From Alphaproteobacteria bacterium (GTDB lineage Bacteria; Pseudomonadota; Alphaproteobacteria; Micavibrionales; Micavibrionaceae): a stretch of 64,000 nucleotides of DNA. Of this stretch, positions 49,255 to 58,854 are shown piece after piece. The stretch covers positions 682,001 through 746,000 of the forward strand of contig JAACPE010000001.1 of the NCBI GenBank assembly GCA_009995595.1, read 5' to 3'. The notes below the pieces were generated by a model. It made no database searches, was not told the origin of the DNA, and worked only from the letters and a program-made list of their open reading frames with translations. Within the stretch, counting starts at the first letter, position 1. Each line of letters opens with the position of its first letter. The translations under genes were made by a program, and so were the position numbers.

Positions 49255-52200
49255 TTACGCGCTTTCTTGCAAACTCAAAAATCCGGGCGTTTTTTGAAGG
49301 CTCATAAGCACATGGGCAGGAACGCTCCAGCGGCCTTTTAGGGGAATTTCGACAATATCATCGGCAATATGGGCAAAAACGGTAATTTGCACAGGGCCAG
49401 CGCCATCTTCGTCCATCATACGTTTAATAATGTCTATCGGCTGTGAGCCCTCAATATGCACCCCTAAAGTACGTATTTTCGCCGCCAGCGCATCTTCAAG
49501 CACCTCAATATGTTGCCCTGTAAAGCGGATTTCTTCGTTTTGCTCTTGTGCATCAAGGCTAATCATCAAGGCCGTTCCGGGCACAAGGATATTACGGTTA
49601 CGTGCGAGCGTGTCAGAGAAGATCATCACCTCAAACACACCTGTCGCATCAGACATCTGCAAAAAAGCAAATTTATTACCTGATTTGGCAGAGACGCGCT
49701 CTTGCTTACGGATCAAAATACCCGCCATTTGCAGGCGGCTATTTGATTTTTTGCTTAAAGCACGCGGCACTTCGGCAAATTTAGTAATGCCAAGCTGTTC
49801 CAATTGATCTGATTGCGTATCAAGCGGGTGCGCGGAGAGATAAAAACCGATCGCCGCAAATTCTCTTGCCAGTAACTCTAATTGATCCCACGGCTCAACT
49901 TTTATGAGCGGCGGAAGCTTTTCTTCCTCGCTATCACTTCCCCCGAATAAGCTCACCTGTCCGCTCGCTTTTTCTTCGGCTTTAGATTGGGCAAAGCGCA
50001 GGATCATCTCCATATTGCCGTGGATTTGGGCGCGGCTCATACCAAATTCATCAAACGCACCAGAACAAATTAATCCCTCCATCTGCTTTTTACTTAACAC
50101 TTTAGAATCACTTCGTAAGGCCAAATTATCCAGTGACTTATAAACACCCCTTGCGTCACGCTCATCAACAAGCGCCTGCATCGCACCCTCCCCAACCCCT
50201 TTAAGCGCCGCCAGCGCATAACGCACCGCGCTTTTGTATTTTTCATGCCCTTCAATAGGTTCAACGCGGAACATCGCACCAGATTTATTAACACTTGGTG
50301 GTAATAAGGTCATGCCCATACGGTCAATCTCTTGCTTAAACACAGAGAGCTTGTCAGTATTGCCATAATCAAGGGTCATGGACGCCGCCATAAACTCCAC
50401 AGGGTAATTCGCCTTAAGCCACGCTGTTTGATAGGCAATCAACGCGTACGCCGCCGCATGGGATTTGTTAAATCCATATCCTGCAAATTTCGCAATTTGG
50501 TCGAAAATGGCAGAGGCTTGCTCCTCAGGCACATCATTATGCTCCGCCGCGCCGACGACGAATTTGACGCGCTCTTTGTCCATTTCCTCTTTAATTTTCT
50601 TACCCATCGCGCGGCGAAGCAAATCCGCAGCACCAAGGCTATACCCTGATAAAATCTGCGCGGCCTGCATAACCTGTTCCTGATATATCATAATCCCGAA
50701 GGTTTCTTCTAAAATAGGCTGCAGTTTTGGGTGCAGATAGTCGGGCTTTTCTTCGCCGTTCTTGGTTGCGATATATTTCGGGATATTATCCATCGGCCCC
50801 GGACGATAAAGCGCCACAAGAGCGATAATATCCTCAAAGCGGTTCGGCTTCATCTTACGAAGGACATCTTTCATGCCCGCACTTTCAAGCTGGAAAACCC
50901 CTGTCGTCTCCCCCCGTGCCATCATCTCAAAGCTTAGTCTGTCATCAAGCGGAATGGTCAGTGCGTCAATCTCTTGGCCGTGATGCTCCCTAATCAGGGA
51001 AATAGCCTCTTGGATGACCGTCAGCGTCTTTAACCCCAAAAAGTCGAACTTAACCAGCCCCGCCTGTTCCACATATTTCATATTGAACTGCGTCACAGGC
51101 ATGTCAGAGCGCGGGTCTTTATAAACGGGCACAAGCTTGTGAAGCTCCCTATCGCCAATAACCAAACCCGCTGCATGCGTTGACGCATGCCGGTAAAGCC
51201 CTTCTAGCTTTAAGGCGATATTAATGAGTTTTGCCGAGGTTTCGTCTTTCTCCCCTTCGGCCCGCAAATCCGGATCACTATCTAGCGCCTCTTGCAGTGT
51301 CATCGGCGCGGCGGGATTATTGGGGATCATCTTGGCAATACGATCGACAAGGCCATAGGGCATTTGAAGCACCCGCCCCGTATCCCTGACTACAGCGCGC
51401 GCCTGTAACTTTCCAAAGGTAATAATCTGCGCGACCTTGTCATGCCCGTATTTATCTTGAACATAACGGATAACCTCTCCGCGGCGATCTTGGCAAAAGT
51501 CCACGTCAAAGTCGGGCATGGATACACGTTCAGGGTTCAAAAAACGCTCAAACAGCAAATTAAATTGCAAAGGGTCAAGGTCAGTGATTTTAAGCGCCCA
51601 GGCAACGACAGACCCTGCACCCGACCCACGTCCTGGTCCCACAGGAATATCATGATCTTTTGCCCATTTGATAAAATCGGAACAAATAAGGAAATATCCC
51701 GGAAAGCCCATTTGCTCTATAACATTCAATTCAAACTCTAACCGCTCCCAATAGAGCGTATGGTCTTCCTTGGATGCATAACCATTATCAATCCGCCATT
51801 GCAGCCCCTCTTTAGACTGCGCCCGAAGTTCCTGAGCCTCATTGCGCCCGCTTTCTGTTTCAAAGGGCGGCAAAATCGGGTCAATCGCTTTGAGTATGAA
51901 ATGACAGCGCCGCGCGATTTTTACGGTGTTTTGAACTGCCTCAGGGATATCCTTAAACAGCTCCACCATTTGATCGGCAGATTTCAAGAAATGATGCTTG
52001 GTTTCTTTACGCCGATCATCCTCGGTCACATAGCGCCCCTCGGCGATACAGAGAAGGGCGTCATGCGCCTCATGCATTGTCACACTGCCAAAGAAACAAT
52101 TATTTGTTGCCACAAGCGGGATGTTCAATTCATACGCCAAATCAATCAGCGCCGCCTCCCGCGCTTCTTCCTCGCGGATATCATGGCGCTGAATTTCAAT

Positions 52201-52665
52201 GTAAAAGCGATCCCCAAATATCTCTTGCAGCTTAACGATCTGCTTTTTCTGCGTCACACCATGCATCGTCCCGCCAGATAGACAAATCAACCCTTCGTGC
52301 GCGCCCGCAATGGCTTTTAAGGTCGTGCACACAGTTTTTCCGCCTTCACCGAGCATATAGGCATCACTAATAATTTTAGAAAGATTACGATAGCCCACTT
52401 CATTTTGCACAAGGAACACAAGCTGCTCGCCCACCCCATTTTTAGAGTCAAGGCTGACCTGACAGCCAATGATAGGCTGAAGTCCCGCTCCCGTCGCTGC
52501 CATAGAAAACTCGAGCGCCCCAAACATATTGTTTGTATCGGTCATCGCCACCGCAGGCATGTCCTGCCCTGCGACCAGCTTCACAAGTTCTTTCGGATGC
52601 ATCGTCCCTTCCGCCAACGAATAAGCAGAATGCGTGTGAAGATGAATGAATTGTGGTGCGGGCAT
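49255..52665 (-). CDS. dnaE: DNA polymerase III alpha subunit
   Basis: DnaE is the replicative polymerase. The 1136-residue protein begins with a PHP domain (HLHTHSAYSLAEG, 8-20). The PolIIIalpha palm carries GPGRGSGAGS (343-352) and PDFDVDF (384-390), which holds catalytic aspartates. YRPGPMDNIPKYI and the GYGFNKSHAAAYALIAYQTA helix-hairpin region follow, and an OB-fold nears the C-terminus (MAGILIRKQERVSAKSGNKF). The length fits DnaE1. It lies between lolD and rpsB, on the same strand as both, with a 58-bp gap before it. Confidence 0.98.
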   Translation of the reverse strand: MPAPQFIHLHTHSAYSLAEGTMHPKELVKLVAGQDMPAVAMTDTNNMFGALEFSMAATGAGLQPIIGCQVSLDSKNGVGEQLVFLVQNEVGYRNLSKIISDAYMLGEGGKTVCTTLKAIAGAHEGLICLSGGTMHGVTQKKQIVKLQEIFGDRFYIEIQRHDIREEEAREAALIDLAYELNIPLVATNNCFFGSVTMHEAHDALLCIAEGRYVTEDDRRKETKHHFLKSADQMVELFKDIPEAVQNTVKIARRCHFILKAIDPILPPFETESGRNEAQELRAQSKEGLQWRIDNGYASKEDHTLYWERLEFELNVIEQMGFPGYFLICSDFIKWAKDHDIPVGPGRGSGAGSVVAWALKITDLDPLQFNLLFERFLNPERVSMPDFDVDFCQDRRGEVIRYVQDKYGHDKVAQIITFGKLQARAVVRDTGRVLQMPYGLVDRIAKMIPNNPAAPMTLQEALDSDPDLRAEGEKDETSAKLINIALKLEGLYRHASTHAAGLVIGDRELHKLVPVYKDPRSDMPVTQFNMKYVEQAGLVKFDFLGLKTLTVIQEAISLIREHHGQEIDALTIPLDDRLSFEMMARGETTGVFQLESAGMKDVLRKMKPNRFEDIIALVALYRPGPMDNIPKYIATKNGEEKPDYLHPKLQPILEETFGIMIYQEQVMQAAQILSGYSLGAADLLRRAMGKKIKEEMDKERVKFVVGAAEHNDVPEEQASAIFDQIAKFAGYGFNKSHAAAYALIAYQTAWLKANYPVEFMAASMTLDYGNTDKLSVFKQEIDRMGMTLLPPSVNKSGAMFRVEPIEGHEKYKSAVRYALAALKGVGEGAMQALVDERDARGVYKSLDNLALRSDSKVLSKKQMEGLICSGAFDEFGMSRAQIHGNMEMILRFAQSKAEEKASGQVSLFGGSDSEEEKLPPLIKVEPWDQLELLAREFAAIGFYLSAHPLDTQSDQLEQLGITKFAEVPRALSKKSNSRLQMAGILIRKQERVSAKSGNKFAFLQMSDATGVFEVMIFSDTLARNRNILVPGTALMISLDAQEQNEEIRFTGQHIEVLEDALAAKIRTLGVHIEGSQPIDIIKRMMDEDGAGPVQITVFAHIADDIVEIPLKGRWSVPAHVLMSLQKTPGFLSLQESA

Positions 52666-52723: not shown

Positions 52724-53419
52724 CTAATAACTTATCACACGCCCATTTTTGATTTCCATGATGCGGGTCATGCGTTCGGCAATTTGCATGTTGTGGGTGG
52801 CGATAATAGCGCCGATCCCTTGTTGCTTGACCAAATCAATCAAAATCTCGAACACGCTCTCTGATGTTTCAGGGTCAAGGTTGCCTGTTGGCTCATCTGC
52901 CAGCAAGAGCATTGGCTTATTGGCCAAAGCACGCGCAATGGCAACGCGTTGTTGCTCCCCGCCTGATAATGTCGCGGGACGATGTGATAGACGGTGCGAA
53001 AGCCCAAGCTTAGTGAGCATTTCTTCGGCCTGTACCATCGCGTCTTTACGCTTAACACCCGCAATCATTTGCGGAATGACCACATTTTCCAATGCTGAAA
53101 ATTCAGGCAAGAGATAATGAAACTGATACACAAAGCCCAAATAATCACGGCGCATTTGTGTGCGCTTTTCATCCGACGCCTTGGCAATATCTTCGCCATT
53201 AATAATCAACTGCCCCGATGTGGGTCTATCCAGCAATCCCACCGTTTGCAAAAATGTTGATTTACCAGAGCCAGACGGCCCAACAAGTGCAACCATCTCT
53301 CCTGATTTAATCTGGACTTCAACATTGTTGAGGACAGTCAGGCTCTCCCCCCCTTGCTTAAACACACGCGTAATATCTTTGGTTTGAAGCAGAACTTCTG
53401 ATGACTTGGAACTATTCAT
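52724..53419 (-). CDS. lolD: Lipoprotein-releasing ABC transporter ATPase LolD
   Basis: LolD powers release of outer-membrane lipoproteins from the inner membrane to LolA. Walker A is GPSGSGKST, the signature is LSGGEQQRVAIARAL, and Walker B is LLLADEPTGNLD. The Q-loop and H-loop (IIATHN) are also present. The 231-residue length is normal. It overlaps the end of lolC by 8 bp, so they form a translationally coupled pair. Confidence 0.97.
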   Translation of the reverse strand: MNSSKSSEVLLQTKDITRVFKQGGESLTVLNNVEVQIKSGEMVALVGPSGSGKSTFLQTVGLLDRPTSGQLIINGEDIAKASDEKRTQMRRDYLGFVYQFHYLLPEFSALENVVIPQMIAGVKRKDAMVQAEEMLTKLGLSHRLSHRPATLSGGEQQRVAIARALANKPMLLLADEPTGNLDPETSESVFEILIDLVKQQGIGAIIATHNMQIAERMTRIMEIKNGRVISY

Positions 53420-54701
53420 AACGCAGTGCCTCTACAGGGTCGAGGCGGCTCGCCCGCCATGCAGGATAGAGCGTCGCCCCTATCGAGATCACAAGCGCCA
53501 TAGCCACCACGCCCAAAATATTATGCCATTCAATAATAGCGGGAAGTTGCGAGAGAAAATAAATCTCATCCTTAAATAATTCTGCGCCCGTCATGCTCTC
53601 AAGCACACCTTTAATCGCATCGATATTGGCAGCAAAAGCAATACCAAGCGCCGCGCCAAAAAACGTACCCGCAATACCAATGCTCGCCCCTGTCAGGACA
53701 AATATTTTAAGGATATTTCTCTTGGTTGCGCCCATGGTTCGCATAATGGCAATGTCTTTACCCTTATCCTTCACCAGCATAATCATGGATGAAATAATAT
53801 TAAACGCCGCCACCAAAATAATCAGGGTCAGAATTAAAAACATGACATTACGCTCCACTGCCAGCGCATTTAAAAACGCGCTATTGGCATCACGCCAATC
53901 ATAGACAGAGGCAAATCCGCCAACAGAATCTTGAACATCCGCCTTCACGCTCTTATTATTTTCAGGATCAAGGGTCATCACTTCAATCGCATTGACAGTG
54001 TCTTTCAAACTGAAAAATTGCTGCGCAGATTTTAAATCCATAAAGATAAACCCGCTATTATACTCATACATGCCGACATCAAATATAACCCCAACCGTAT
54101 AGGTGCGTGAACGCGGCACAGTGCCAAACGGCGTGGCTTTTCCTTTGGGCGCAAGAAGCGTGATCGGACTACCAATCCCAAGCCTTAATTTATCGGCCAA
54201 ATTGACACCAATCGCTACTTGCTGCTCTTTGAAATCAGATAAGGCACCCGCCTGAATTGTACTACATCTGAGGCTACTTGCCCCTTCATTACAATTGGAC
54301 GGCTTTAAGGTGGACGCGGTAATCTTCGTGGCAAAATCCTCTCGGCTCATCGCCCGCACGAGGGCGCCCGTCGCTGATCCACTCACAGAGATAAGCACTT
54401 GCCCTTCAATAAGCGGTCGCACCGTTTCAACGCCCGCAATGCGCTCAATCCGATCAACAAGCGCCATGTAATTATCAATCTCCCCGCTTTGGGAATAAAC
54501 ATTTAAATGTCCATTCAACCCCAAGATGCGGTTAACAAGCTCTGCCCGAAAACCATTCATCACTGACATCACGATTATCAGTGTCGCCACACCGAGCATA
54601 ATCCCCAAAAACGAGAACGTCGCGATAACAGAAACAAAGCCCTCCGCTTTACGCGCCCGCAAATACCGCCATGCCATCATTCGCTCAAGGGGTGAAAACA
54701 T
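53412..54701 (-). CDS. lolC: Lipoprotein-releasing ABC transporter permease LolC/LolE
   Basis: The permease has four membrane helices in the FtsX/MacB arrangement: one near 20-47, a large periplasmic domain (about 48-270), then three at about 275-300, 320-350 and 380-410. The N-terminus ERMMAWRYLRARKAEGFVSV and the C-terminus YPAWRASRLDPVEALRYE are typical. Alphaproteobacteria carry a single LolC/E-type permease (sometimes called LolF) that acts as a homodimer with LolD. It starts 3 bp after the proS stop and overlaps lolD by 8 bp. Confidence 0.95.
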   Translation of the reverse strand: MFSPLERMMAWRYLRARKAEGFVSVIATFSFLGIMLGVATLIIVMSVMNGFRAELVNRILGLNGHLNVYSQSGEIDNYMALVDRIERIAGVETVRPLIEGQVLISVSGSATGALVRAMSREDFATKITASTLKPSNCNEGASSLRCSTIQAGALSDFKEQQVAIGVNLADKLRLGIGSPITLLAPKGKATPFGTVPRSRTYTVGVIFDVGMYEYNSGFIFMDLKSAQQFFSLKDTVNAIEVMTLDPENNKSVKADVQDSVGGFASVYDWRDANSAFLNALAVERNVMFLILTLIILVAAFNIISSMIMLVKDKGKDIAIMRTMGATKRNILKIFVLTGASIGIAGTFFGAALGIAFAANIDAIKGVLESMTGAELFKDEIYFLSQLPAIIEWHNILGVVAMALVISIGATLYPAWRASRLDPVEALRYE

Positions 54702-54704
54702 GTT

Positions 54705-56177
54705 TTAATACGCCTTTGCGATCAGAACTTTTTCACCATGATCTGCAATGGGCATATTACGCGTTGAAAGGGAGTAATCACTCATTACTTTTTCAAGCGC
54801 CTTATCTTCCAAAATAGAAACAGGAGCGCGGACAAATCCGATTTTTCCTGATTTAAAGAACGCATCAATCTCAGCAATATTTGTTACATCATACGTATTC
54901 TCATCACGGAACTGACGCGTGCGCTCTAACATTGAATCATGGATATCATCAAGGACGCTTTGCGCCTTATTCATAAACTCATCAACACTTAACGTCGTCT
55001 TGCTGTCACGTCCAATATCACGGCGGACATAGGTAAGCTGACCCGCTTCCATTTCACGTGCGCCCACTTCGACGCGGATTGGTATACCTTTTTTAACCGC
55101 GTCCCACATCTTATCAGGGGTACGCATATCACGATTATCAAGCTTCACGCGAAAGCCTTTTGCTTTAAGGTCATCGGCGAGTTTCGCGCAGAACGCTTCA
55201 ACTGCATCGGCTGTATCATCCTTCACCACAGGCAATATAATAATTTGTTGGGGCGCAATGCGCGGCGGCATAATCATGCCGTCATCATCTGCGTGCATCA
55301 TAATAAGGCCGCCAATCGTGCGTGTACTAAAGGCCCATGAGGTTGTATGGCACAAATGCTCTTTTTCATCGCGCCCTTGATAGGTGATATTAAACGTCTT
55401 TGAAAATGTTGTGCCCAGATCATGCGTTGTGGCCGCCTGAAGCGCCTTACCATCTTGCATCATCGCCTCAAACGCGTAAGTATTATTTGCACCCGGGAAT
55501 TTTTCTTCTTCCGTCTTTAGTCCGATATAGCCATCAAACGCCAAATACTCTGTAAAGAATTTCTCATACAGGCCCATGACGTGGCGACAATCTTGATCCG
55601 CCCCTTCATGATCCGCAAAAGCGTTATGACCCTCATGCCAGAAGAATTCAGCGGTACGTAAAAACAAACGCGTCCGCATTTCCCACCGCAGCACCTGCGC
55701 CCATTGGTTTAATTGCATCGGCAAATCACGGTAAGATTGGATCCACCGTGACATCGCATCGCCAATAATCGTTTCAGATGTCGGACGCACAATATATGGC
55801 TCTTCTAATTTTGAGTCCGCGGCAGGTTGCAATCCCCCCTTGCCATCACTTTCAAGGCGGTGATGGGTCACAACGGCACACTCTTTGGCAAAGCCCTCAA
55901 CATGCTCTGCTTCGCGGGAGAAAAAGCTCATGGGGATAAGGAGCGGGAATGATGCATTTTGCACGCCATAATCCTTCAGCCATTTATCAAAAATCTCCTG
56001 ACATTTTTCCCAAATCGCCCACCCATAAGGCTTGATAATCATACACCCACGCGTTGGTGAATTTTCTGCAAAATCGGCGGCGCGTACAACTTGCTGATAC
56101 CATTCCGCAAAGTCTTCTTCACGCGTTGGCGAAATGGCGGTACGTGGTTTTTTATTGTTCTGTGCTGGATTATTCAT
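54705..56177 (-). CDS. proS: Prolyl-tRNA synthetase, archaeal/eukaryotic type
   Basis: The enzyme charges tRNA-Pro. Its motifs are those of the archaeal/eukaryotic (type 3) ProRS: SPTRGCMIIKPYGWAIWEK (40-58), LLIPMSFFSREAEHVEGFA, VRPTSETII, RWEMRTR (164-170) and FLRTAEFFWHEGH (172-184). The chain ends with tyrosine (IAKAY), matching the C-terminal tyrosine that enters the active site in this type. The insertion (INS) editing domain of bacterial-type ProRS is absent. Most alphaproteobacteria carry a different, bacterial-related short ProRS at this same proS-lolC-lolD-dnaE locus. The 490-residue length fits type 3. It is followed 3 bp later by lolC. Confidence 0.95.
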   Translation of the reverse strand: MNNPAQNNKKPRTAISPTREEDFAEWYQQVVRAADFAENSPTRGCMIIKPYGWAIWEKCQEIFDKWLKDYGVQNASFPLLIPMSFFSREAEHVEGFAKECAVVTHHRLESDGKGGLQPAADSKLEEPYIVRPTSETIIGDAMSRWIQSYRDLPMQLNQWAQVLRWEMRTRLFLRTAEFFWHEGHNAFADHEGADQDCRHVMGLYEKFFTEYLAFDGYIGLKTEEEKFPGANNTYAFEAMMQDGKALQAATTHDLGTTFSKTFNITYQGRDEKEHLCHTTSWAFSTRTIGGLIMMHADDDGMIMPPRIAPQQIIILPVVKDDTADAVEAFCAKLADDLKAKGFRVKLDNRDMRTPDKMWDAVKKGIPIRVEVGAREMEAGQLTYVRRDIGRDSKTTLSVDEFMNKAQSVLDDIHDSMLERTRQFRDENTYDVTNIAEIDAFFKSGKIGFVRAPVSILEDKALEKVMSDYSLSTRNMPIADHGEKVLIAKAY

Positions 56178-56196
56178 CTTTACTCTCGCTTTTATA

Positions 56197-56874
56197 TTAT
56201 TCTCTAAAATCGCTACCCTGAATCAGGCCATTATTATTCTCTAAATCATTCAAATCTGTGACAATAGATTTAAGCTCCTGCGCAATTTCTTCTTTGGTCA
56301 TTTGCGGTTTTGGCTCTGGCTCTGCCATGACTTTTTCTAAAAGGCCACTCTCGGCGGCGTAACTTGTCATTGAGTCCAAAGGCTCTCTCTCTATCACTTC
56401 GGCTGATGGAGTTTCAGGAACAGGAGAAGGCTCAACTTTGGTCGCTGGCACTTCTTTAACGTCTGTTACAATACGCTGTGATTTGGCACAAAGTATCCCT
56501 GTTTGTGATGAGACGTCTTGGCCGTTTACAGAGACTTTCCCATCAGAATATATTTCCGCCACACCTAAATTTGTATCCGCATCAAATCCAAATTCTTTGA
56601 GCGCGCGTAATCTATTTTGTAATGATACATCAAGCGGGATCGTAATCACATCAGGCATACCAAATGTAGAAACACCAGCCACATCAGCAGGCATCACAGG
56701 CTTACCCTTCACATCAACACGCGGCTGATATATAGCGCCCTTCACGGCGCTTTGCTTATCCAAAAGGCGGCATAATGCGCTATTTTCTGGGTTCATCACA
56801 CCCTCTTTCTCTTGCGCGTGCGCCTTCACGTGGGTTGAGGCAATCATCAATAAAACAATAAATATTAAATGCAT
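56197..56874 (-). CDS. Hypothetical secreted protein
   Basis: I do not recognise a family. The 225-residue protein has a signal peptide (about 1-20, ending VKAHA). A globular region follows with two cysteines (C34 and C127) and the phrase IPLDVSLQNRLRALKEFG, which might be a short repeat-like domain. From about 140 it is Pro/Glu-rich, ending in a helical segment with MTKEEIAQELKSIVTDLNDLENN. It would be periplasmic or exported. Its ATG overlaps the stop of the DUF1467 gene (TAATG), so the two are co-translated. proS starts 19 bp downstream. It is not one of the usual members of this block, so it is probably lineage-specific. Confidence 0.8.
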   Translation of the reverse strand: MHLIFIVLLMIASTHVKAHAQEKEGVMNPENSALCRLLDKQSAVKGAIYQPRVDVKGKPVMPADVAGVSTFGMPDVITIPLDVSLQNRLRALKEFGFDADTNLGVAEIYSDGKVSVNGQDVSSQTGILCAKSQRIVTDVKEVPATKVEPSPVPETPSAEVIEREPLDSMTSYAAESGLLEKVMAEPEPKPQMTKEEIAQELKSIVTDLNDLENNNGLIQGSDFRE

Positions 56875-57164
56875 TATTGTGTTCCTTCCCCATTATGAAG
56901 CGCTCTATCTTCTGTTACCATTTCACGCGACATTTCATAAAAATCAAGCACGCCATAATGAACCAACACAAAAATAATGAGCCAAACAACAGCAGATAGT
57001 CCCGCGCAAATTAAAAACTTCTCTTTAATACGCGGTTTTGCAGGCGCACTCCCCGCCATGCCTGTTTCTAATTTTTCTGGCGTTTTATTACCCCATGGCA
57101 GCACCGCAAAAAGCAGCGTCCAGAACACCATGAGGTAAACAATAATTCCCGCAAAAATAGTCAT
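56874..57164 (-). CDS. DUF1467 family membrane protein
   Basis: The 96-residue protein has two membrane helices (about 2-24 and 50-70). The N-terminal pattern VYLMVFWTLLFAVLPWGNKT and a central GSAPAKPRIKEKFLI match the DUF1467 family. That family is found next to RNase J and proS in alphaproteobacteria. Its role is unknown. The gene starts 10 bp after the rnj stop, and its own stop overlaps the next ATG by one base. Confidence 0.85.
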   Translation of the reverse strand: MTIFAGIIVYLMVFWTLLFAVLPWGNKTPEKLETGMAGSAPAKPRIKEKFLICAGLSAVVWLIIFVLVHYGVLDFYEMSREMVTEDRALHNGEGTQ

Positions 57165-57174
57165 AAGTCTCTCT

Positions 57175-58854
57175 CTAAATAATGCTCACATGAACATCTG
57201 TTTTCGGTTTCATCTTTAACACATTATTCGCGTAACGACGAAGGGCAATCCGTATTTCTTCGGCAACAAATTCTTCAGTTTTGTTTTTACCTTTTTTCAG
57301 GTCACGTAAAACATCGTCTATTTCGTTAAACATCTCATCTTCAAAATCCATTCCCTCATCGCTGTCCTCATCAATAAGGCCTTGGGTTGATATATGCGGA
57401 TCACTCAAAAACTCCAAGTTTTTATCAAGAACGAGTGAGGCATGAATAGCCCCCGAATATTGCAATTTGCGCCGCTCGGCAATCGCCTTATGACCGCCAT
57501 CAATAATGCGTCCTGGCTCAACCGCCAAAACCCCCGTGGTGACATGATCAATAATTTCTGGCGTATGGGGCGCCAAATGGATCACTGATCCATTATTTGG
57601 GATGATCGTTTGCGGCACTTGGCACATTTGTGCCAATTTGGCGTGTGCTTCCAACATCACGCGCTCACCGTGGACGGGGATGACAAGCTGCGGCTTCAAC
57701 CAATCTAACATCTCCACAATTTCATCGCGGCAAGGGTGACCTGACACATGAATACAATGTGACGTTTGGCTGGTTGTAATAATCTTAACTCCTGCGGCGG
57801 CCAAATTATTCTGCACGCCGTAAATATTTTTCTCATTCCCAGGTATTGCCCGTGATGAAAAGATAACTGTATCGCCGCGCTTGATACGGTAAAACTGGCT
57901 ATCCCCGCGTGCGATACGCGCCATTTGCGCGCGTGCCTCACCTTGAGAGCCTGTTGCAATAATCACAATATTTTCACGCGGCAATAATTCTAGATCATCC
58001 TCATTCACAAAGTCTTGGATATCATTCAAATATCCGCAAGTTTTAGCGGCCCCCACCATACGATGTAAGGATCTCCCAACAAGGCCAACACTGCGCCCAT
58101 TGGCTTCTGCCGCCTTACAAATCGAATGAATCCGTCCTATATTGGAGGAGAAAATAGTAATGACAATCGCGCCCTTATCATTTTCTTTAATAACCTCAGC
58201 CAACCCCTTTTGCACATTCATTTCAGAGCCAGAGCGCCCCGCAACATTCGCATTGGTTGAATCCCCAATATAGGCAAGGACGCCCTGCTTACCGATCTCA
58301 CGAAAAGTTTTTTCTGAAGTCGGCACGCCCAACACTGGCGTAGGGTCTAAGTTCCAATCACCACTATGCAGGACATTGCCGTATTTTGTTTTTACAAATA
58401 ACGATGCCGTTTCGGGAACGGAATGCGTTACAGGTATAAACTGCACCACATACGTGCCAATCTGAATTGTGGCACCCATGTCCACTACAACAATCGGCGC
58501 TTTTTTACACGCTGGCTCTTCTGCCATTTTTTTCTTGAGGATTTCGGCTGTAAAACGCGTGCAATAAATTGGGCATTTTAAGCGCGGCCATAAATGGGCG
58601 ACCGCTCCAATATGATCTTCATGCGCGTGCGTGATAATAAGGCCGCTAATTTTCTTTTTATGTCCTTCCAAATATTTTGGGTTGGGCAATAAAATATCAA
58701 TACCCGGGAAATTCTCATCGGCAAAACCGATTCCCATATCGACGACGAGATAATCATCATCACACTCATACACATTCAGGTTCACCCCAAATTGCTCTGA
58801 TCCGCCAAGCGGTATAAAATTTAAGCCTTCAAACTCTTTTTTACTTTTTGCCAT
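57175..58854 (-). CDS. rnj: Ribonuclease J
   Basis: RNase J is a metallo-beta-lactamase/beta-CASP nuclease with 5' exonuclease and endonuclease activity in RNA decay and rRNA processing. The metal motif THAHEDHIGA has H76, H78, D80 and H81. The beta-CASP part contains VPIHGERVMLEAHAKLA and ISGHPCRDEIVEML-like VSGHPCRDE, followed by a C-terminal domain to residue 559. It lies between coaX and the DUF1467 gene, overlapping the coaX 3' end by 14 bp. This is the conserved alphaproteobacterial position downstream of nuoN and birA. Confidence 0.97.
   Translation of the reverse strand: MAKSKKEFEGLNFIPLGGSEQFGVNLNVYECDDDYLVVDMGIGFADENFPGIDILLPNPKYLEGHKKKISGLIITHAHEDHIGAVAHLWPRLKCPIYCTRFTAEILKKKMAEEPACKKAPIVVVDMGATIQIGTYVVQFIPVTHSVPETASLFVKTKYGNVLHSGDWNLDPTPVLGVPTSEKTFREIGKQGVLAYIGDSTNANVAGRSGSEMNVQKGLAEVIKENDKGAIVITIFSSNIGRIHSICKAAEANGRSVGLVGRSLHRMVGAAKTCGYLNDIQDFVNEDDLELLPRENIVIIATGSQGEARAQMARIARGDSQFYRIKRGDTVIFSSRAIPGNEKNIYGVQNNLAAAGVKIITTSQTSHCIHVSGHPCRDEIVEMLDWLKPQLVIPVHGERVMLEAHAKLAQMCQVPQTIIPNNGSVIHLAPHTPEIIDHVTTGVLAVEPGRIIDGGHKAIAERRKLQYSGAIHASLVLDKNLEFLSDPHISTQGLIDEDSDEGMDFEDEMFNEIDDVLRDLKKGKNKTEEFVAEEIRIALRRYANNVLKMKPKTDVHVSII

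Follow-up and report, generated by a model that had tools for sequence, protein, structure and literature searches.

A proS slot as a probable site of in-place exchange among divergent prolyl-tRNA synthetases in an alphaproteobacterial order

The proS slot of the alphaproteobacterial order studied here is very probably an exchange site for divergent 'homeoalleles' of prolyl-tRNA synthetase (ProRS), which occupy one syntenic place while the neighbouring genes stay unmoved. Three types of the enzyme are found at this slot within one order, and partly within one genus; the history of proS is discordant with that of its neighbours; and remnants of a type 3 gene are present in two loci that carry an alpha-type gene. 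The analysis concerns a stretch of 64,000 nucleotides, hereafter the window, and its host genome (G000; 1.99 Mb, 99.97% complete). An earlier note on this DNA had proposed that the native proS was replaced in place by a transferred copy of archaeal/eukaryotic type.

The proS frame of the window encodes a type 3 ProRS of subtype T3B with 490 aa and occupies exactly positions 54705-56177 on the minus strand. Its protein scores 449.1 bits with the curated profile TIGR00408 (proS_fam_I; cut-off 437), compared with about 93-102 bits for the bacterial models TIGR00409, NF006625 and NF008979. The features from which the earlier note had assigned the type were each verified in the sequence, i.e. the motifs RWEMRTR and FLRTAEFFWHEGH, the absence of the INS domain between motifs 2 and 3, where the alignment to the Thermus enzyme is ungapped, and a terminal tyrosine (C-terminus KVLIAKAY). 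Among solved structures, Thermus ProRS ranks first (414 bits), followed by the eukaryotic and then the archaeal enzymes, which assigns the window protein to the bacterial branch of type 3 enzymes. With Thermus thermophilus ProRS (1h4q) and the type 3 profile it has sequence, motifs, lack of INS and terminal Tyr in common; unlike type 3 enzymes such as 1h4q, its C-terminal segment is shorter and Cys-less, and it carries the active-site changes of T3B described below. Zinc-binding cysteines at the C-terminus are a common, though not universal, feature of type 3 ProRS. Within the last 75 residues, the window protein has no Cys and the type 3 proteins of the order have 0-3, in a shortened C-terminal segment; judged from these sequences, their zinc site has probably been lost. 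Because several other type 3 rows are likewise Cys-poor in this region, the type 3 membership of the window protein stands. The second proS that the earlier note had suggested looking for is not found in a search of G000, the sole other match being ThrRS. As the only proS of a nearly complete genome, the window gene presumably encodes an active enzyme.

The slot lies in the gene order nuoN-birA-coaX-RNase J-DUF1467-225-aa gene-proS-lolC-lolD-dnaE, with one strand, here the minus strand, used throughout. Downstream of proS follow the lolC/E permease (53412-54701; TIGR02212, 444 bits), which adjoins proS across the order, the LolD ATPase (52724-53419; top NCBIfam model TIGR02211 LolD, 280 bits), and dnaE for the DNA polymerase III alpha subunit (49255-52665; identified by sequence and position, with homologues at the equal place in relatives), which is among the genes behind the reference tree. 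Upstream flanks are the gene for a 225-aa protein with a signal-peptide-like start (56197-56874; no NCBIfam or Pfam match), a DUF1467 protein (56874-57164; PF07330, 66.7 bits) and RNase J (57175-58854; TIGR00649, 392 bits, together with Pfam RNase J domains). The edges of the exchange slot are, on one side, a 3-bp spacer from the proS stop to the lolC start (54702-54704) and, on the other, the 19 bp that separate the 225-aa gene from the proS start (56178-56196). Thus lolC, lolD and dnaE downstream and DUF1467 upstream are the neighbours that had been named before, but DUF1467 does not adjoin proS directly, as the 225-aa gene lies between them, and it is the stop of proS rather than its start that is 3 bp away from lolC. 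The 225-aa gene is fast-evolving and looks secreted; it is kept at the slot edge in most genomes of the order, at about 25-45% identity.

In a class-wide sample of 385 genomes, type 3 is a minority form: it occurs in 52 genomes, against 312 with the alphaproteobacterial PRK12325 type, in agreement with the earlier view that the native proS of the class belongs to another lineage. The order is represented by 142 genomes, 130 of them with a scoreable ProRS; about 115 of the 142 have type 3 (three fragments among them) and 15 have a bacterial type only. The type 3 proteins of the order fall almost entirely into a single clade, which also takes in G170 and a set of 0.9-Mb genomes from outside the order; G027 is an exception, as its type 3 protein falls outside the order's own clade. 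From this wide occurrence and the nearly single clade we infer that the arrival of type 3 at the slot dates to around the order's base and did not happen in the window's genome, and a single recent transfer into that genome is ruled out on the same grounds. Archaea as the immediate donor are unsupported; in a tree without archaeal rows, the order's copies lie near those of Verrucomicrobiota and other alphaproteobacterial type 3 proteins, in the bacterial branch. The proposed in-place replacement by a transferred copy is therefore retained in kind and revised in date, extent and direction. The contrary idea, that the whole order simply uses type 3 by vertical descent, is correct in that type 3 is largely order-wide, but its inheritance has not been vertical.

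An alpha-type ProRS is found at the identical slot, between the 225-aa and DUF1467 genes and lolC, in 14 genomes of the order. Two of these belong to the window's genus (G006, G009), the others to its family beyond the genus (G012, G423-426, G439, G482-485, G493) and, in one case, to another family (G502). In G469 the slot holds a divergent bacterial ProRS of a third type, which shares about 36% identity with the alpha-type, scores above the cut-off of proS_fam_II and lacks the INS domain. The same INS-less type, with about 422 aa, occurs at another locus, in addition to type 3 at the slot, in eight genomes, i.e. five congeners of G469 and three members of another family (G461-G463, G466, G468, G419-G421), and these account for the 8 out of 142 genomes with two ProRS forms. 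In most of the fetched loci the same gene order surrounds the slot whether it holds type 3 or alpha-type, and the two enzymes are only about 28% identical. At two loci (L091 in G027 and L120 in G115), the type 3 proS is inverted at the slot relative to its neighbours, so a simple double crossover does not account for every event. For G500 (99% complete), no ProRS match at E <= 1e-18 was obtained in the order-wide search, which probably reflects an assembly gap.

On a flank tree inferred from seven neighbouring genes and 79 taxa, at least nine type changes are needed for two classes (500 shuffles: mean 14, minimum 10), and 19 changes if subtypes are counted. One such pair is that of the sister species G019 (type 3) and G493 (alpha-type), which differ in type although their dnaE, lolC and lolD are 94-97% identical, and whose ProRS share 29%. 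Other close kin with unlike types are G005 (T3B) and G006 (alpha-type) and the trio of G000 (T3B), G001 (subtype T3A) and G009 (alpha-type). For dnaE, lolC, lolD, rnj, coaX and nuoN, the closest relative belongs to the same genus in 90-100% of cases (a range that leaves out the fast 225-aa gene and birA), and for type 3 ProRS in 82%. The sample contains one genome per species and many metagenome assemblies, such that single cases may be chimeric; several of the switched loci are nonetheless situated on contigs of 1-2 Mb. The order's alpha-type copies form one clade (support 100/99) whose branching broadly follows the flank tree, and have consequently either entered once or descended from an old native gene retained in some lineages; part of the alpha-type pattern could be old retention instead of exchange.

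Subtype T3B comprises 19 rows (support 100/100) from nine genera and two families. In the window's genus it is held by G000, G004, G005, G007 and G008, whereas the congeners G001-G003 have T3A; beyond the genus it occurs in g3, g6, g8, g9, g318, g322, g324 and a second family (G031). A single type 3 clade for the window's genus is rejected by the AU test (p = 3e-6), which suggests that the window's type 3 copy has itself been exchanged within the order. Pairwise identities run accordingly in opposite directions: G000 and G005 share 88% in ProRS, 73% in lolC and 67% in dnaE, compared with 63%, 81% and 84%, respectively, for G000 and G001. At a second locus about 140 kb away, the frames around tRNA-Pro(UGG) group G000 with G001 and G009, as does the flank tree, and the rpoB match length points the same way, as it is 4143 nt in these three genomes and 4146-4149 nt in the rest of the genus. 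The transfer of the window's copy was not a recent one, because fourfold sites in the comparison are near saturation; a recent exchange into the window is thereby excluded.

These observations bear on the simplest alternative, according to which a single old type 3 replacement took place in the ancestor of the order and was followed by plain vertical descent down to the window. Such a history would account for the predominance of type 3 and for its nearly single clade with few outside relatives, yet it has to be considered improbable in view of the alpha-type at the slot in 14 genomes, congeners included, the spread of T3B over nine genera in two families, the AU rejection for the genus, and the scars in G006 and G493 described next.

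Scars of an overwritten type 3 gene are recognisable at 2 of the 15 switched loci, namely at the 5' end in G006 and at the 3' end in G493. In G493, 14 nt following the alpha-type stop, GGAAGCGTATTGA, correspond to the type 3 end (GKSY stop) of its near-twin G019: downstream of the alpha-type stop G493 reads GGAAGCGTATTGATATGGCAGA, whereas G019 has GGGAAGTCGTATTGATATGGCAGA, of which the first 15 bases close the type 3 ORF. Owing to a 1-nt deletion, the remnant is hidden from a pattern scan in three frames and is revealed by direct alignment. The match to the type 3 tail is equalled in 8 of 20000 shuffles, and its score of 11 compares with 8 or less at other loci of bacterial type. On the opposite side, the 225-aa gene of G493 resembles the G019 copy and is near-identical until its stop, about 20 bp ahead of proS. 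In G006, the alpha-type ORF starts with MNKPVKNSVRLS, while the remaining alpha-type proteins of the order start with MRLS or similar; the ORF is opened by six type 3 codons (MNKPVK), and its first 18 bases agree with the type 3 starts of G008 and G005 at 17 and 16 positions, respectively, whereas a comparison with 665 other gene starts gives at most 14 of 18. Both loci are most simply read as cases in which type 3 was overwritten in place by the alpha-type.

The scars are also relevant to a second alternative, i.e. that both genes were present in the ancestor, by duplication or early double acquisition, and were differentially lost thereafter. It would agree with the finding that each type forms roughly one clade in the order and with the approximate congruence between the alpha-type tree and the flank tree; the eight genomes with two ProRS might be cited in its favour, though the second gene of these genomes is of the divergent third type and lies at a different locus. 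None of the order genomes searched was seen to combine type 3 with alpha-type, two separate genes would not be expected at one slot with identical neighbours, and the scars speak for overwriting, so that this scenario, too, has little likelihood. Taken together, the parsimony count, the AU test and the scars favour transfer over loss alone as an explanation of the type distribution. The replacement of one type 3 copy by another, for which the trees are the basis, would be a further component of the exchange.

ThrRS is not suited as an independent species marker, since it is itself discordant: its tree (L386-L405) disagrees with that of the neighbouring genes, joins G000 with G004-G006 and places G031 and G037, from another family, within the window's family. 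This suggests that synthetases are frequently exchanged in this order; the exchange may be an order-wide habit of these enzymes, and proS is then perhaps not special. That the whole slot region moves rather than proS, and that proS and ThrRS carry the true history, is highly improbable, for although ThrRS likewise joins G000 to G004, G005 and G006, its tree mixes different families, the flank genes agree with one another, and the genes near tRNA-Pro(UGG) join G000 with G001 and G009.

What is constant in these genomes is the tRNA. All 28 genomes read, with type 3 and alpha-type alike, have C1:G72 and A73 in tRNA-Pro(UGG), and both isoacceptors of G000 (UGG and GGG) are of this kind. An adaptation of tRNA-Pro to archaeal recognition, which the earlier note had raised, is therefore ruled out; the ProRS types swap against an unchanging bacterial tRNA. 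The stand-alone editing factor it had likewise asked about is present: a YbaK/ProX-family protein is found in G000, and a search of 38 genomes gave 29 that have one, with both ProRS types, which indicates that free-standing editing is independent of the type. Two of these proteins look ProXp-ala-like by eye and score far under the Cys-tRNA(Pro) deacylase cut-off.

Under the favoured reading of the slot as an exchange site, the window gene would encode a functional type 3 ProRS with ordinary bacterial tRNA-Pro as its substrate. Type 3 would have come from the bacterial branch of its family and entered near the base of the order, the alpha-type would have persisted in, or re-entered, some lineages, and both may since have circulated by transfer among close relatives; the window's T3B copy might come from another lineage of its genus or from a neighbouring genus. 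Replacement would proceed by recombination at or near the gene ends with the flanks left intact, as suggested by the unbroken neighbourhood, by breakpoints no more than some 25 bp from the ORF and by the two remnants, and the exchange would be tolerated because different enzymes accept the identical C1:G72/A73 tRNA-Pro.

A possible driver may be sought in the active site of T3B. Three codons of the window gene, all on the minus strand, distinguish the subtype: His181 (55635-55637; WHEGH) in place of the Gln found elsewhere in type 3 (19/19 T3B versus 0/87 others), Thr251 (55425-55427; ATTH) in place of the Ser found outside T3B (16/19 versus 0/87), and Ala282 (55332-55334; TTSWA) in place of the Gly of nearly all others (19/19 versus 1/87). 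The changes Q181H, S251T and G282A hit the otherwise fixed or near-invariant motifs WQEGH, GTSH and TTSWG, which we take to line the proline/adenylate pocket of class II ProRS, and we conjecture that they alter inhibitor binding. It is a speculative and rather unlikely proposition that natural ProRS inhibitors repeatedly exert selection on the slot, with type 3, alpha-type and T3B cycling through the order as target forms of differing sensitivity and T3B being the insensitive one; if true, it would amount to a long-lived, cross-species polymorphism of an essential enzyme.

Two kinds of known systems are comparable. In xenologous gene displacement in situ, as in mosaic operons, a foreign homologue replaces the native gene and leaves the operon unbroken. 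As far as the descriptions considered here go, the proS slot shares the foreign homologue in the native place and the unbroken operon, and it differs in that displacement at this single locus of one order is recurrent and has run in more than one direction. Homeoalleles of aminoacyl-tRNA synthetases have been described for bacterial TyrRS and for archaeal ThrRS and SerRS (Andam and Gogarten 2011, PMC3191353). Like the proS forms, they are divergent enzymes of the same function, patchy in higher taxa, usually one per genome and transferred among relatives; the TyrRS types, moreover, lie in one syntenic context, as does proS, and replacement via flanking recombination has been proposed for them (PMC3191353). 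ProRS is not among the cases described there (PMC3191353). The proS slot further departs from them in that it accommodates three forms and, in addition, a second subtype of type 3, that the type changes even between congeners, and that the direction can be read from what is left of the replaced gene. A literature search for ProRS homeoalleles in alphaproteobacteria found no report among the papers covered. With patchy forms in one taxon, usually one per genome, in a shared neighbourhood, the slot is best read as belonging to the known homeoallele kind, to which it adds ProRS, an unusually frequent exchange, and scars.

Essential informational genes are usually thought to be hard to replace. 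With at least nine type changes in one order and sister species that differ in type, the proS slot offers a clear example from nature of an essential gene exchanged in place, and it cautions that ProRS, like ThrRS, is unsafe as a vertical marker in this group. It also provides a well-sampled natural series for studying the mechanism and the driving forces of in-place replacement.
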